64,000 nucleotides of DNA from Nitrospinia bacterium (lineage in GTDB: Bacteria > Nitrospinota > Nitrospinia > Nitrospinales > JAJDAT01), in assembly GCA_029261715.1 (NCBI GenBank), contig JAJDAT010000016.1, positions 1 to 64,000 of the forward strand. Reading direction: 5' to 3'. The notes under the pieces are model-generated. The model did no database searches. It was not told the origin of the DNA and worked only from the letters and a program-made list of their open reading frames with translations. This document shows, one piece after another, positions 18,770-27,803 of the stretch; position 1 is the stretch's first letter; each line of letters opens with the position of its first letter. The position numbers and the translations under genes are program-made.

Positions 18770-19609
18770 TTATTTTTCAAATATGGAAGAAACCTGTTCT
18801 AAGCTATTTTCTACTTCTTCTTTTATCACGTTCATTCTTTCTTCAGAAATGCCTAAAATTTGCGAAAAATCAGGTTCTTCTTCACTGCATTTAGGACCAA
18901 CCCCATTGGAAACTTTTTGATGATTTAGCAATACATTTGATAATGCGACAACTTCTTGCGATCCTTGCTTTAAGGGTCGATGATGTTCATGAACTAAAGA
19001 GATAACTCCAGGAGCTATAGGCCACCACTTTTCGATATATTTAGCGCCTACCTCGGCATGATCAATCCCAAAACTTTCAACTTCTAAAACTTCTAAAGAT
19101 TGATCCGCATCATTCGTTTTCGCTAAAAACTCCGAATATTCTTTTGGAAAAAAATTCAGAAAAACTAATATTCCAATATCATGCATCAATCCAGCTAAAT
19201 ATGCATTTTCGCGAGATTCATCGCTTTGTTCAAAAAATTCACTTAAGGACTTGGAACAAACTGCGGAGGCAAATGAGTGTTTCCAAAATGATACTTGGTT
19301 AATAGCTTTTGTTCTTGATGAAACCTTTGGTATTTCTAAAGTATAAGCTAGATCTAAAACCATTTTTAAACCCAATCTACCTAAGGCATTATCCAAGTCT
19401 TCCGCTTTGTCTCTACCGCCTCCTATAAAAACGCTATTTGCTAATTTCATCAGTCTACCGGATAAAACTGGCTCGGTTTTTATCAAGTCCGAAATATCGG
19501 CGATACAAGAGTCTGGGTCGTCTATTATTTGTTCTAATTTTATAAGGATGTCTGGTAGTGGAGGTAAGTTTTGTTGTGTATTTACCGCTTCCAATATTTT
19601 ATCTCGCAT
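18770..19609 (-). CDS. HDOD-domain protein (copy 1)
   Basis: 279 residues. The N-terminal HDOD segment has LPPLPDILIKLEQIIDDPDS, then ISDLIKTEPVLSGRLMKLAN. The HD-like core shows AYLAGLMHDIGILVFLNFFP near 141-160 and LVHEHHRP near 206-213. HDOD domains are degenerate HD domains that usually act as signal-output scaffolds in chemotaxis, motility or cyclic-di-GMP pathways rather than as hydrolases. It is a close paralogue of the next gene (same length, long identical stretches) and lies 21 bases upstream of the MBL gene. No receiver or GGDEF domain is attached. Confidence 0.88.
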   Translation of the reverse strand: MRDKILEAVNTQQNLPPLPDILIKLEQIIDDPDSCIADISDLIKTEPVLSGRLMKLANSVFIGGGRDKAEDLDNALGRLGLKMVLDLAYTLEIPKVSSRTKAINQVSFWKHSFASAVCSKSLSEFFEQSDESRENAYLAGLMHDIGILVFLNFFPKEYSEFLAKTNDADQSLEVLEVESFGIDHAEVGAKYIEKWWPIAPGVISLVHEHHRPLKQGSQEVVALSNVLLNHQKVSNGVGPKCSEEEPDFSQILGISEERMNVIKEEVENSLEQVSSIFEK

Positions 19610-19713: not shown

Positions 19714-20553
19714 TTAATTTCCTCCAAACAAAGAACTTAATTCTCCAATAGAATTCGAGGTTTGTTCTTTCAATTCTTCTAATTCAACCTCTGAAGCACC
19801 TATAATTTCAGCAAAATTCAGTTCTTCACTAATCGCTGGCCCCACTTTATTTTGATAACCAAGCGCATTCACAAAACTATTCGCCAAACCCAAAACATTT
19901 TTTGCGTCGACATCAAACGGCTCATGGCGCCTTTTTATTTGATCCACTACCGACTCTGAAACCGGCCACCATTTTTCAATATATTTAGCTCCTAACTCAA
20001 CATGATTGATTCCAAAACTTTCAGTTTCAAGTTCTTCCAATGGCTTTTCTTCATCAACAACCTTCTTCAAAAAATCTCCATACTCTTTAGGAATGTTATG
20101 AAAAAAAACTAAAATCCCGACATCATGCATTAATCCAGCTAAATACGCATTTTCTCGCTGGTCTTCATCTTGCGAAAAAAGTTTGCTTAGAGCGCGCGAA
20201 CAAATTGCCGTTCCAAATGCATGCTGCCAAAAAGCGCTTTGATTAATAACCTTATTCCCTGAAGAAATTTTGGGTAATTCAACGGTATAGGCCAAATCAA
20301 GCACCATTTTTAAACCCAATCGCCCAATAGCATTATCCAGGTCTTCCGCTTTTTCTCTTCCGCCGCCAATAAACACGCTATTTGCAAGCCTCATCAAATT
20401 TCCCGATAAAACAGGTTCCGTGTATATCAGACTAGAAATATCAGAAATACAGGTGTCTGGATCGTATACCTTTTGTTCAATTTTCGATAGAACTTCAGGC
20501 AAAGGAGGTAAGTTCTCTTCTTTATTAATAATTGCTAAAATTTTTTCACGCAT
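19714..20553 (-). CDS. HDOD-domain protein (copy 2)
   Basis: 279 residues, like its neighbour. Shared blocks include LANSVFIGGG, KAEDLDNA and RLGLKMVLDLAYT. The HD-like core AYLAGLMHDVGILVF is present, but the later HEHHRP of copy 1 is KRRHEPFD here. The tandem arrangement and equal length indicate a gene duplication followed by divergence. It is probably the first gene of the HDOD-HDOD-MBL run, because a divergent gap of about 200 bases separates it from rlpA. Function is inferred only from the domain. Confidence 0.88.
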   Translation of the reverse strand: MREKILAIINKEENLPPLPEVLSKIEQKVYDPDTCISDISSLIYTEPVLSGNLMRLANSVFIGGGREKAEDLDNAIGRLGLKMVLDLAYTVELPKISSGNKVINQSAFWQHAFGTAICSRALSKLFSQDEDQRENAYLAGLMHDVGILVFFHNIPKEYGDFLKKVVDEEKPLEELETESFGINHVELGAKYIEKWWPVSESVVDQIKRRHEPFDVDAKNVLGLANSFVNALGYQNKVGPAISEELNFAEIIGASEVELEELKEQTSNSIGELSSLFGGN

Positions 20554-22744: not shown

Positions 22745-22756
22745 AGGAGGCCTCCT
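22745..22756 (+). promoter_or_regulatory. Strong Shine-Dalgarno inside a perfect 12-base palindrome
   Basis: AGGAGGCCTCCT ends on the first base of the TTG start of the LpxC fusion gene. AGGAGG (22745-22750) has good spacing to TTG at 22756 and decides that start. The palindrome is exact, so the ribosome site could pair with itself (AGGA/TCCT) or be bound by a dimeric regulator. Whether this has any function is not shown. Confidence 0.5.
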
Positions 22757-24786
22757 TGCCCAAAGAACGCATTTTAGTTGTCGACGACGAAAAAAATATC
22801 GTGAGTTCCCTTTATGGAATCCTATCCGACGAAGGTTATGATGTTTCATCCGCAGAAGATGGATTAGAAGCTCTGGAAAGAATTCAGAACGATCCACCAG
22901 ATTTAGTTTTATTGGATATCTGGATCCCTGGAATGGACGGAATTGAAGTCTTGAGAACTATCAAAACCTATCAAAAAGAATTACCGGTTCTCATTATGTC
23001 AGGGCATGCTTCTATAGATACTGCCGTGCGAGCAACGAAATTGGGCGCTATTGATTTCGTCGAAAAACCTTTTTCACTCGACCAAATTACTCAAGCAGTT
23101 GCTAATGGACTCAAAGAAGGTAAAGGAATTCCTAAACAAAGCGGCGTTGACTTCGCAGATAAAATGGATCGAATACTCCGTTTTCAAATGATGATCGACG
23201 TAAAAAAAGGAGTTAAGAACGCTTCTAAAAATTCGCGACCTATTTTATTAATTGGCGATAAGGGCACTGGCAAAGAGTTAGTCGCACAAACGATACACAG
23301 GCAAAGTAAACAAAATGATCGTCCTTTCATCAAACTAAATTGCGCTGTCAGACGCATGCAAGATATTCAAGCGCAATTATTCTGCTCAACAAAAAAGAAT
23401 GGCGATTCTTCGCAAAATCTCCCTGGAACCAAAGAAAAAGCTGTTTTTCTAAGCAACATTGAATCTTTATCCAAGGGACTACAAGAAAAACTAGCTCTCG
23501 CTTTAAAAAATCAAACCGTAAAAAAGAACGATACAATTTTAGACTTTCTTCCAATTCGAATATTCGCTTCAACATCTAAGAATCTCGAAACTCTTGTTAA
23601 AAAAGGTCAATTAAATAAAGATCTCTACGACATCTTTGCTAAAGACACAATACAAATTCCATCGTTACGAGAGCACTCTGAAGCCATCCCAGAATTGATT
23701 GAAAATTATTTTGAATCCTGGGAAAAAAATGGAAATCCAAAACCAACAATAAAAGAAGACGCCATCAAAACTCTCTGCAATTATGATTGGCCTGGAAATA
23801 TTAAAGAATTAAAAGAGGTTTTGGAGCAAATCTGGTTACCTGGAACTGGAAATAAAATAATAAACCTTCAAGACTTACCTCCCTACATTAGAGTTTCAAA
23901 CTTTTCGGATTCAGAGAATAAAGCTGAGATAAAACCAAAAAACGGAAAGAAAAAATCACTTAATCAGAGAACTCTGAAAAGAAGCGTAGTTTTATGTGGA
24001 AGTGGACTCCATTCAGGGATTAAGACTGGCTTAATTTTACAACCACTTCCCGCTGGAAGTGGAATTGTCTTTGGCGATATAACTACTGGAGAAACTATTC
24101 AAGCTAAGTTGAATAACGTCCAATCTACTAATTATTCAACTTGTCTTCAAAAAGGACTTGTATCAATAGCGACCATTGAACATATTATGGCAGTACTTCA
24201 TATGTATCGCATAACTAATCTATTGATAAAAATTGGTGACGAAGCCCCTGTAATGGATGGCTCCGCTAAAGATTTTTGCCAATTAATCGAAGATGGCGGA
24301 TTTGAAGATCAGGACGATTTTTACGAAGAGTTGATTGTTGATAAAACTTATATCTTTGGCTCCCCAGATAGCGGTAAACCTTATATCTCTATAGAACCTT
24401 CCGATACATTCTGCGCAAGTTACCATATGGATTATCCCGCGCCAATTGGAGTTCAAGATTATACTTACGAATTTTTTGGTTCCGAAAGCTTCAAAGCAGA
24501 AATAGCTCCGGCTAGAACTTTTGGCTTTTTAGAAGATGTCGCACAATTAACCAAAATGGGATTTGCTTGTGGCGGCAAATTGGATAATTTTATCTTGCTC
24601 GGCGATAAAAAGGTATTGAACACGGAACTGAGGTTTCACGACGAATTTGCACGTCATAAAATTCTTGATATTATCGGCGATTTCTACCTATTGGGTAAAC
24701 CCATTCGAGGAAAAATTAAGGCGTTTAAATCTGGGCACACTGAAAATGTTGGATTGATGAAGCAAATACAAACTAGCTTATGTTAA
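22756..24786 (+). CDS. lpxC: Fusion of response-regulator receiver, degenerate sigma54-type AAA+ domain and LpxC deacetylase
   Basis: 676 residues from a TTG start. Residues 4-120 are an intact receiver: D10/D11, phospho-acceptor D54 (LLDIWIPGMDG), S82 and K104. Residues 135-375 are an NtrC-type AAA+ module. It keeps Walker A (GDKGTGKE, 167-174) and WPGN (345-348), but GAFTGA is missing, Walker B Asp-Glu is replaced (AVFLSNIESL), and the arginine-finger region is lost (DLYDIFAKDT). Residues 405-676 are LpxC, which removes acetate from UDP-3-O-acyl-GlcNAc, the committed step of lipid A synthesis. Its catalytic residues are present: E475-H476, H634, D638 and H661. The DNA-binding helix-turn-helix is replaced by LpxC, so it should not act as a transcription factor. 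Phosphorylation control of LpxC is inferred. Confidence 0.93.
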   Translation: MPKERILVVDDEKNIVSSLYGILSDEGYDVSSAEDGLEALERIQNDPPDLVLLDIWIPGMDGIEVLRTIKTYQKELPVLIMSGHASIDTAVRATKLGAIDFVEKPFSLDQITQAVANGLKEGKGIPKQSGVDFADKMDRILRFQMMIDVKKGVKNASKNSRPILLIGDKGTGKELVAQTIHRQSKQNDRPFIKLNCAVRRMQDIQAQLFCSTKKNGDSSQNLPGTKEKAVFLSNIESLSKGLQEKLALALKNQTVKKNDTILDFLPIRIFASTSKNLETLVKKGQLNKDLYDIFAKDTIQIPSLREHSEAIPELIENYFESWEKNGNPKPTIKEDAIKTLCNYDWPGNIKELKEVLEQIWLPGTGNKIINLQDLPPYIRVSNFSDSENKAEIKPKNGKKKSLNQRTLKRSVVLCGSGLHSGIKTGLILQPLPAGSGIVFGDITTGETIQAKLNNVQSTNYSTCLQKGLVSIATIEHIMAVLHMYRITNLLIKIGDEAPVMDGSAKDFCQLIEDGGFEDQDDFYEELIVDKTYIFGSPDSGKPYISIEPSDTFCASYHMDYPAPIGVQDYTYEFFGSESFKAEIAPARTFGFLEDVAQLTKMGFACGGKLDNFILLGDKKVLNTELRFHDEFARHKILDIIGDFYLLGKPIRGKIKAFKSGHTENVGLMKQIQTSLC

Positions 24787-25170: not shown

Positions 25171-27201
25171 ATGAAATTTAACAACAAGAATCTTAAACAT
25201 GTTTTTTTGTTGTGGTTTGCATGGATGTTAATAATTGGTAGTTCTCCTGTTTATGGAAAAAACGATCTAGAGCTAACAACCCTAAAAGATCTTTCATTAG
25301 ACGAACTCCTAGATATAAAAGTTACATCAGTCGCGAAGAAAGAACAGCGACTTTTTAAAGCCGCTTCGGCAATTTACGTAATCACAAACGAAGATATTCG
25401 CCGCTCAGGCCATACCACCATCGCAGAAGCCTTAAGAATGGTACCAGGAATGCAAGTCGCTCACATAGACTCAAATACCTGGGCTGTCACATCACGCGGT
25501 TTAAATTCTCGCTTTGCAAGTAAGCTTTTGGTGATGATTGATGGAAGATCTGTTTATTCTCAGATTTTTTCAGGAGTATATTGGGACGAAGTTGACGTTG
25601 CTTTGAAAGATATCGATAGGATTGAGGTCATTCGAGGACCAGGTGGAACTATATGGGGAGCAAATGCCGTAAATGGAGTGATCAATATAATCACCAAAAA
25701 CTCAAAAGACACACAAGGCGGTTTTATTAGCGCTGGCGCAGGCAATCAAGAACTAGGCTTTGGAACTTTCCGATATGGTGAAAAAATAGATCAAAATAAA
25801 AGTTTTAGAGTTTATGGAAAATATTATGAAAGAGACGAATTTGGAGAACGATTAGGAAACACGCCTGCCGACAGCTGGGATGCGTTTCGAGGTGGCTTTA
25901 GGATGGATTGGGAAGTTTCTGAAAAGTCTTCATTAACCTTTCAAGGCGACTATTACAATGGTGAGTCTGGAGAAAAAGCCGATAATAATGTTGTCTCATT
26001 CTCATTTCCTGGAACCGCAAGCTTCGACCGCGAGGTACAAATAGATGGAGTTAACTTTTTAACCCGTTGGAAAAAAATAATTTCCGAAACTTCGGATATG
26101 GAGCTTCAGTTCTACTTTAACCGGCAAAAACGCGACGGTAGTCCTATAACTGAATTTATTTTGGATACTTACGATCTAGAGTTTCAACATAGGTTTCTCT
26201 TAACTCAAAAACAAGAAATTACCTGGGGTTTAGGGCAACGTTATGTAAAAGACTCTTTTTCAAATAGCTTAGCTCTTCAGTTTGATCCTCTTAGTAGATG
26301 GAACTATCGTTTAGGAACTTTCATTCAGGATGAAATCACTCTTATTCCCGATAACCTTCGACTAATATTAGGATCCAAGTTCTCGGAAAATAACTATACA
26401 GGATTTGAATTTCAACCCAGTGGTAGGCTTTTATGGACCCCAAATGATCGTCATACTGTTTGGGGAGCTGTTTCCCGAGCGGTTAGAACTCCTTCACGCG
26501 CAGAAGATACTATTCGTCTAAATGGATCGGTTCTTCCAGGACCTACTGTTGCCGCTTTTATAGGAACTCATAATTTTGAATCTGAGGACTTACTGGCCTA
26601 TGAAGCTGGATATCGATTTAGACCTTCCAGCAAACTATTTTTTGATCTAAGCCTTTTCTACAATAAATACGAAAATCTTAACTCTAGAGAACCAGGCTCT
26701 CCTTTCATTGAAACTTCTCCAAGCCCAGCGCATGCAGTGCTTCCATTTTTTGTCGAAAATCAAAGCTCTGGAGAAACCTACGGCTTGGAATTTGACGTTA
26801 AATGGAAGCCAAAAAACTGGTGGCAACTGAGTGCCGGTTTTAATTGGTTAGAAGTTTCCTTAAACCTAGATCCTGGAAGCCAAGCTATTTCCACATTAGC
26901 TGCAGAAGGCAACGACCCCGAATTTCAGGCAAATATAAGATCACAATTAGACCTTCCACATAATTTCGAATTTGATACAGCATTTTATTACGTCGACAAC
27001 CTAGAAAGATTTAAGGTACCTAGCTATATACGAGCCGATTTGCGCTTAGGCTGGCATCCTACCGAAAACTGGGACGTTAGCGTAGTAGTTCAGAACTTAC
27101 AAGATTCTGAGCATTTGGAGTCCGGCGAGGAATCCACTAGGTTATTGTCATTAACAGAAGTTCAACGTTCAGTGTATGGAAAAATAACCTGGAAGTTTTA
27201 G
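25171..27201 (+). CDS. TonB-dependent outer-membrane receptor
   Basis: 676 residues. A signal peptide (about 1-29) precedes LSLDELLDIKVTSVAKKEQ, the usual N-terminal segment of this receptor subfamily. The plug domain follows at about 60-170: ITNEDIRRSGHTTIAEALRM, LLVMIDGRSVY, DIDRIEVIRGPGGTIWGANA and NGVINIITK. The remainder is a beta-barrel rich in aromatic strands, ending YGKITWKF with the terminal Phe needed for outer-membrane assembly. Such receptors import siderophores, vitamins or carbohydrates, and the substrate cannot be told from sequence. The next gene encodes a YfiR-family protein, a frequent partner of this receptor type. Confidence 0.93.
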   Translation: MKFNNKNLKHVFLLWFAWMLIIGSSPVYGKNDLELTTLKDLSLDELLDIKVTSVAKKEQRLFKAASAIYVITNEDIRRSGHTTIAEALRMVPGMQVAHIDSNTWAVTSRGLNSRFASKLLVMIDGRSVYSQIFSGVYWDEVDVALKDIDRIEVIRGPGGTIWGANAVNGVINIITKNSKDTQGGFISAGAGNQELGFGTFRYGEKIDQNKSFRVYGKYYERDEFGERLGNTPADSWDAFRGGFRMDWEVSEKSSLTFQGDYYNGESGEKADNNVVSFSFPGTASFDREVQIDGVNFLTRWKKIISETSDMELQFYFNRQKRDGSPITEFILDTYDLEFQHRFLLTQKQEITWGLGQRYVKDSFSNSLALQFDPLSRWNYRLGTFIQDEITLIPDNLRLILGSKFSENNYTGFEFQPSGRLLWTPNDRHTVWGAVSRAVRTPSRAEDTIRLNGSVLPGPTVAAFIGTHNFESEDLLAYEAGYRFRPSSKLFFDLSLFYNKYENLNSREPGSPFIETSPSPAHAVLPFFVENQSSGETYGLEFDVKWKPKNWWQLSAGFNWLEVSLNLDPGSQAISTLAAEGNDPEFQANIRSQLDLPHNFEFDTAFYYVDNLERFKVPSYIRADLRLGWHPTENWDVSVVVQNLQDSEHLESGEESTRLLSLTEVQRSVYGKITWKF

Positions 27202-27266
27202 TAACTAAGATCCACCGAAAAAACCTGACCTATAGCCTCAATAATTATTTTCATTAAGAGTCGCTT

Positions 27267-27803
27267 TTGAAAAAAATATTTATTTTCTTAATTATTTTAA
27301 TTTCGTTTTCTCTACAAACCTTCCCAAACGAGTCCTTTGGGGGTATTCGAGAAGATAAAGTTCAGGCCGCTTTTATTTATAAATTCATCCAATTTATTGA
27401 ATGGCCAACTGAAATTGAAAAGGAATCAAATAAATTTAAAATTGGTATTTATGGGAAATCCAATATGGAGGAGCTTCTCCAAACCTTTTCTGGAGAAAAA
27501 GTAAATGGACGTTTTCTTGAAATCCATCCTGTAAAAAATTTAAACGATCTCAAAAAATGTCATATCATTTTTATAAGTCCTTCAGAAGCTAGCAAGCTAA
27601 ATGAAATCTTAGAAGCATTAAACGGCTCGAGCATTTTGACTATAAGTAGAATGAAAGATTTTGCTCTGAAAGGAGGTATGATCAATTTTTATGTTAATGA
27701 AGAACGTGTTCGTTTTGAGATAAACCCAGAGCCAGCAAGAAACGCTGGCTTAAAAATTAGTTCCAAATTGCTAAAAGTATCTAAAGTCATCCGAACGCCA
27801 TAA
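27267..27803 (+). CDS. YfiR family periplasmic protein (DUF4154)
   Basis: 178 residues from a TTG start. A signal peptide (about 1-25) is followed by the family pattern VQAAFIYKFIQFIEWP, KIGIYGKSNMEELL and HIIFISPSEASKLNEIL, then ILTISRMKDFALKGGMINFY near 120-140 and NPEPARNAGLKISSKLLKVS at the end. YfiR in Pseudomonas is a periplasmic repressor of the diguanylate cyclase YfiN. Here it follows a TonB receptor gene by about 65 bases, an arrangement often completed by a GGDEF or kinase gene, which is missing here. Confidence 0.88.
   Translation: MKKIFIFLIILISFSLQTFPNESFGGIREDKVQAAFIYKFIQFIEWPTEIEKESNKFKIGIYGKSNMEELLQTFSGEKVNGRFLEIHPVKNLNDLKKCHIIFISPSEASKLNEILEALNGSSILTISRMKDFALKGGMINFYVNEERVRFEINPEPARNAGLKISSKLLKVSKVIRTP

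Follow-up and report, generated by a model that had tools for sequence, protein, structure and literature searches.

A response regulator of apparent NtrX descent fused to LpxC in Nitrospinota: a probable direct link between a sensor kinase and outer-membrane synthesis

The window, the whole 64,000-nucleotide stretch of a Nitrospinia genome analyzed here (contig JAJDAT010000016.1, positions 1 to 64,000, forward strand), carries at 22756-24786 (+) an open reading frame that starts at TTG and encodes a single 676-aa protein. In this chain, an intact receiver (REC) is followed by a degenerate NtrX-type AAA+ domain and by a catalytically intact LpxC, whose reaction commits the cell to outer-membrane construction. 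A scan for promoters and terminators remained at chance level. Directly 3' of the fusion locus lie genes for a TonB-dependent receptor and then for a YfiR/HmsC-like (DUF4154) protein (25171-27803, +); on the other side, two adjacent paralogous HDOD-domain genes (18770-19609 and 19714-20553, both on the minus strand) appear to be a tandem duplication. The fusion gene has the following features:

22745..22750, + strand: AGGAGG Shine-Dalgarno sequence, just 5' of the TTG start (sequence)
22756..24786, + strand: ntrX::lpxC fusion gene, 676 aa, the genome's sole lpxC (open reading frame, genome search, Pfam)
22771..23100, + strand: receiver domain, aa 6-115 (Pfam and alignment)
22915-22917, + strand: codon of the phospho-acceptor D54 (alignment)
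23185..23667, + strand: degenerate NtrX-type AAA+ domain, aa 144-304; Walker A kept, GAFTGA, Walker B acids and arginine finger lost (Pfam, motif check)
23668..23919, + strand: AAA+ lid with WPGN, aa 305-388 (Pfam, motif check)
23908..23964, + strand: linker of low predicted order, aa 385-403, at the place of a Fis-like helix-turn-helix (HTH) in relatives (domain annotation, model)
23965..24768, + strand: LpxC deacetylase domain, aa 404-671; catalytic and zinc residues intact (Pfam, alignment)

Pfam finds Response_reg at residues 6-115 (E 1e-32), Sigma54_activat at 144-292 (E 9e-24), AAA_lid_14 at 305-388 (E 2e-16) and LpxC at 404-671 (E 6e-79). The first-pass annotation, made from this stretch of DNA alone, had read the protein as an intact receiver with D54 and K104, an AAA+ module stripped of most of its motifs, and an LpxC with all catalytic residues, and these readings stand: D54, K104, S82 and D11 of the receiver are invariant in an alignment of 63 related fusions, as are the eight LpxC residues E475, H476, T588, H634, K635, D638, D642 and H661, and a motif check agrees on the AAA+ domain, in which Walker A (GDKGTGKE) and WPGN are kept, GAFTGA and the arginine finger are absent, and Walker B reads AVFLSN, its acids lost. 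The LpxC domain scores 265.8 bits against a cut-off of 27 (PF03331) and 236.6 against 187.25 (TIGR00325); its best match among solved structures is Pseudomonas aeruginosa LpxC, with which E475, H476, H634, D638, H661 and other residues line up, and Foldseek confirms the LpxC fold. By every sequence test, the fusion is an LpxC.

Is it also the only one? The first-pass annotation had named a separate, ordinary lpxC supplying the activity, with the fusion inactive, as a finding that would speak against its reading; a PF03331 search of this 5.33-Mb, 97%-complete genome returns the fusion and no second copy. LpxB is present as well, and its presence together with the sole-copy status of the fusion argues for deacetylase activity. 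The earlier guess that similar fusions may occur in related genomes proved too modest: the fusion is the sole LpxC in almost every Nitrospinota genome, in three further phyla, in Desulfomonile and in other lineages. LpxC is found in 65 of 77 Nitrospinota genomes, exactly one in each, nearly always as a frame of 660-800 aa; of the shorter frames inspected, some run into the end of a contig and others have no AAA+ domain. In the three further phyla, where fusions were called by open frame (and by domain content for the fetched loci), every genome with an LpxC has it in fused form (4/4, 20/20 and 2/2), and the fusion recurs in two Desulfomonile genomes and in two labeled Deltaproteobacteria (OFTM157, bin116). 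An assembly artefact is rejected because the same joined frame is present in dozens of independent genomes, including the single-contig G009, G047 and G057. In an LpxC tree (a quick search without bootstrap), all 75 fused sequences group together as one clade, to the exclusion of 19 stand-alone enzymes (SH-aLRT 100, stem 0.84); a single origin of the fusion is therefore most likely. One fusion, at L181 (G304), has about 170 additional residues N-terminal of the receiver (837-aa ORF within a 962-aa open frame).

Where does the N-terminal half come from? The fused REC and AAA+ domains form one clade nested within the regulators that adjoin NtrY, the NtrX group, and their best match among solved structures is PDB 5m7n, deposited as a nitrogen assimilation regulatory protein, which we take to be NtrX of Brucella. 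The protein shares with NtrX the receiver, the AAA+ fold, the WPGN lid, the partner NtrY and the clade, but departs from it in its lost GAFTGA, Walker B and arginine finger, in its enzyme output, in its score (255.1 against the NCBIfam NtrX cut-off of 600) and in the absence of a C-terminal Fis-type HTH, for which Pfam and local HMM annotation give no match. Because both the cut-off and the HTH are wanting, it falls outside the NtrX transcription regulators as defined; its sequence marks it as a response regulator in manner of action, derived from NtrX, and not as a sigma-54 activator. Eight other REC-AAA+ regulators of this genome were tested as candidate NtrX proteins, and all fall outside the NtrX/fused group. 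Elsewhere, stand-alone NtrX proteins that adjoin ntrY and lack GAFTGA occur at L081:7989-9350, where lpxC lies 5' of ntrY, and at L072:3005-4366; these are possible intermediates toward the degenerate AAA+ of the fusions.

The relatives form a natural deletion series. Domain architectures, assigned by local HMM annotation of all loci and confirmed by Pfam for L050, L052 and L086, range from REC-AAA-HTH-LpxC (many Nitrospinales, f9 and two other phyla) through REC-AAA-LpxC (the window protein and others) and REC-HTH-LpxC (L052, 508 aa) to a bare REC-LpxC (L050/L051, about 450 aa; L086, 447 aa; L096, 419 aa). On the tree, the AAA+ domain was lost at least three times: in L096, in L086, and in L050/L051 and L052, the last two possibly separate losses. 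The HTH was lost several times, and in no case have REC and LpxC been separated. This pattern corrects the earlier view that LpxC replaced the HTH: LpxC was rather added 3' of an HTH that many relatives still have, and loss of the HTH came afterwards. Because AAA+ and HTH have gone repeatedly and REC never, the series points to the first two as dispensable and to the receiver as not.

Selection on the domains follows the same line. Among 27 pairs with all three domains, median dN/dS is 0.042 for REC, 0.13 for AAA+ and 0.043 for LpxC, and AAA+ has the highest dN in 27/27; some pairs are near synonymous saturation and they are not fully independent, though the order is uniform. The receiver thus evolves as slowly as the catalytic domain, and the AAA+ about three times faster. 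Stand-alone regulators show no such relaxation of the AAA+, which matches REC in conservation (it is the less conserved of the two in only 4 of 18 pairs); the faster change is thus peculiar to the fusion. All 69 fusions lack GAFTGA, which speaks against any sigma-54 activation, and the Walker B DE pair is retained in two of them. Within Nitrospinota, 43 of 43 AAA+ domains keep the Walker A lysine and none keeps the Walker B glutamate; given this invariant lysine and a dN/dS of 0.13, the domain does not look simply like debris there, and in the lineage of the window the protein may still be modulated by a bound nucleotide. The first-pass annotation had suggested that the phosphorylated receiver could affect LpxC by way of a nucleotide-binding AAA+ domain. 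The first part of this proposal, signal control through the receiver, gains indirect support from a REC that is never lost, is selected as strongly as LpxC and has a conserved candidate kinase; the second is not supported as a general mechanism, for a domain that evolves faster and is lost on at least three branches, with REC and LpxC still joined, is unlikely, on this comparative evidence, to be what connects the two in general.

The candidate kinase is NtrY. The gene immediately 5' of the fusion is ntrY in the early-branching Nitrospinota f5, f7 and f9 and at most loci sampled from the other phyla, with a 4-bp overlap in f7; it encodes NtrY_N (PF19312, above its cut-off), HAMP, PAS, HisKA and HATPase domains. 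NtrY is found in 65 of 77 Nitrospinota genomes and is nearly always single (30 of 31 good genomes). The cognate kinase that the first-pass annotation wished to see found has thus a candidate in the window's own genome, on contig C5 (L236:6888-9200, minus strand), with NtrY_N at 31.5 bits against a cut-off of 23.2 and the same HAMP, PAS, HisKA and HATPase domains by Pfam; the assignment is by Pfam NtrY_N, as no NCBIfam model scores above its cut-off. This ntrY is unlinked to the fusion, so in this genome the pairing is argued from orthology and from the lack of a further NtrX. Throughout Nitrospinales, the window's order (L236, L237-L246), ntrY is single-copy and has remained at its old, conserved mutS-SDR-DUF4390-ntrY locus, with no response regulator in its neighborhood, and the fusion lies behind greA-trmB, with rlpA further 5'. 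The SDR gene encodes an SDR epimerase; across phyla, DUF4390 accompanies ntrY, and it may be part of the sensing apparatus. On its 3' side, the fusion often has one or more of purN, lolA (outer-membrane lipoprotein transport) and rseP (envelope proteolysis), as in L045, L046, L050, L052, L056 and L060, a block lost in the window.

Lineages that lack the fusion hint at how it arose. Among 39 loci with NtrY and sufficient upstream sequence, a stand-alone lpxC lies just 5' of ntrY(-ntrX) in seven, in one case overlapping by 4 bp; these belong to Syntrophobacterales, Rokubacteria and unclassified Deltaproteobacteria. The fusion is then the same gene set with lpxC relocated to the 3' end of ntrX. 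On balance, we lean toward a scenario in which NtrYX first acted on the transcription of a neighboring lpxC, until a single event, deep in the evolution of bacteria, joined regulator and target enzyme and made the control direct and post-translational.

If the receiver and the enzyme are never lost and the presumed cognate kinase is retained, what do they do together? Most simply, NtrY, a membrane histidine kinase, would phosphorylate D54, and the phosphorylated receiver would control, post-translationally, the LpxC of the same chain. NtrY is very likely the kinase, and there is a good chance that phosphorylation controls LpxC post-translationally in some way; that control acts on catalysis, rather than on stability or location, is only slightly favored. 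The whole account, from a sole LpxC in an ntrX-lpxC fusion through NtrY and D54 to control of LpxC by REC, we regard as fairly likely. AlphaFold models, one of them of a short form, show well-folded domains (mean pLDDT 84.8 and 83.1) connected by flexible segments, with a 47-residue disordered linker in the short form; the predicted monomers have no confident REC-LpxC interface (pTM 0.50, and 0.75 for the short form). Residues conserved specifically in the fused proteins were set aside as a guide to such an interface, since the sets compared differ in divergence.

The receiver could instead govern how much LpxC there is or where it is, by RssB-like regulated proteolysis or by recruitment to the membrane beside NtrY. 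The genetic evidence on REC and NtrY fits such control equally well, and E. coli regulates the amount of LpxC, not its activity, through FtsH (PMC12444477, PMC6339880). The fusion stops a few residues past the LpxC domain and so lacks an E. coli-type C-terminal tail, a point also counted for this reading. A search for the LapB zinc ribbon (PF18073) matches RadA-like frames too, so that LapB is not separable from RadA. We consider control of amount or place rather unlikely, yet the strongest competitor of control over catalysis. Less probable still is that REC-AAA is a structural or expression partner whose phospho-signal never reaches LpxC: flexible interdomain linkers would suit it, and LpxC-FabZ fusions are common without any signaling (NCBIfam PRK13188; fused frames L040-L042), but a passive partner leaves unexplained why D54, K104, S82 and D11 are invariant in 63 sequences, why dN/dS of REC equals that of the enzyme, and why a single NtrY is retained without a neighboring regulator. 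We judge it highly improbable that the protein has remained a regulator of transcription in which the LpxC domain senses substrate or moonlights: many relatives keep a Fis-like HTH and NtrX proteins bind DNA (PMC7240162), but the window protein has no HTH, repeated losses have removed it elsewhere, even L047, the best-preserved relative, has no HTH_8 match at E 1e-3, and the loss of GAFTGA noted above is universal among the fusions.

Control of LpxC by a receiver acting within the same chain has partial parallels. CheB and the GGDEF and EAL proteins are response regulators with enzyme outputs, in which REC controls a tethered enzyme; the likeness is in the tether, but those are signaling enzymes, whereas LpxC is a biosynthetic enzyme normally required for growth, and no LpxC-like biosynthetic output domain on a response regulator was found in the open-licence literature searched. 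LpxC-FabZ (PRK13188) is likewise an LpxC in a fusion, but FabZ is a second enzyme placed C-terminally, not a signaling switch. Relative to ordinary LpxC (PF03331, TIGR00325), the window's domain is complete, keeps all catalytic residues and exceeds the curated cut-offs, but sits behind a response regulator and in a deep clade of its own. Response regulators have been linked to lpxC before: lpxC is the single target of DVU2934 in Desulfovibrio vulgaris, and in Syntrophobacter fumaroxidans it immediately precedes the operon of the orthologous regulator (PMC3333781); deletion of ntrYX in Rhodobacter sphaeroides raises the lpxC transcript 8.8-fold and about doubles LPS, an effect judged indirect (PMC7240162). 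In those cases, a separate protein acts on transcription; here, regulator and enzyme are one polypeptide. Neither a receiver nor a fusion appears in a 2025 review on how lipid A is regulated (PMC12444477), and no paper on a receiver-LpxC fusion was found in the open-licence literature, which is weak evidence of novelty; sequence databases may list the architecture uncommented. New here are (i) the NtrX identity of the N-terminal half, with NtrY linkage in early-branching relatives and a single-copy NtrY in the window's order; (ii) the stand-alone lpxC 5' of ntrY-ntrX in related lineages; and (iii) the natural deletion series of the fusion.

So far, LpxC has been known to be controlled in its amount, by FtsH/LapB proteolysis, or in its transcription. 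With the sole LpxC fused to an NtrX receiver, and with NtrY retained by the genomes concerned, a sensed signal probably switches outer-membrane synthesis directly, the output of this response regulator being a committed biosynthetic enzyme. The deletion series would record a transcription factor becoming the regulatory domain of an enzyme, and its short REC-LpxC forms offer a compact test of a receiver governing a tethered biosynthetic enzyme. Because LpxC is an antibiotic target, a natural allosteric handle on it would be of practical interest. If the account is true, outer-membrane synthesis would, across whole phyla, be under a new mode of control: a phospho-switch within LpxC itself, served by a sensor kinase that is identified.
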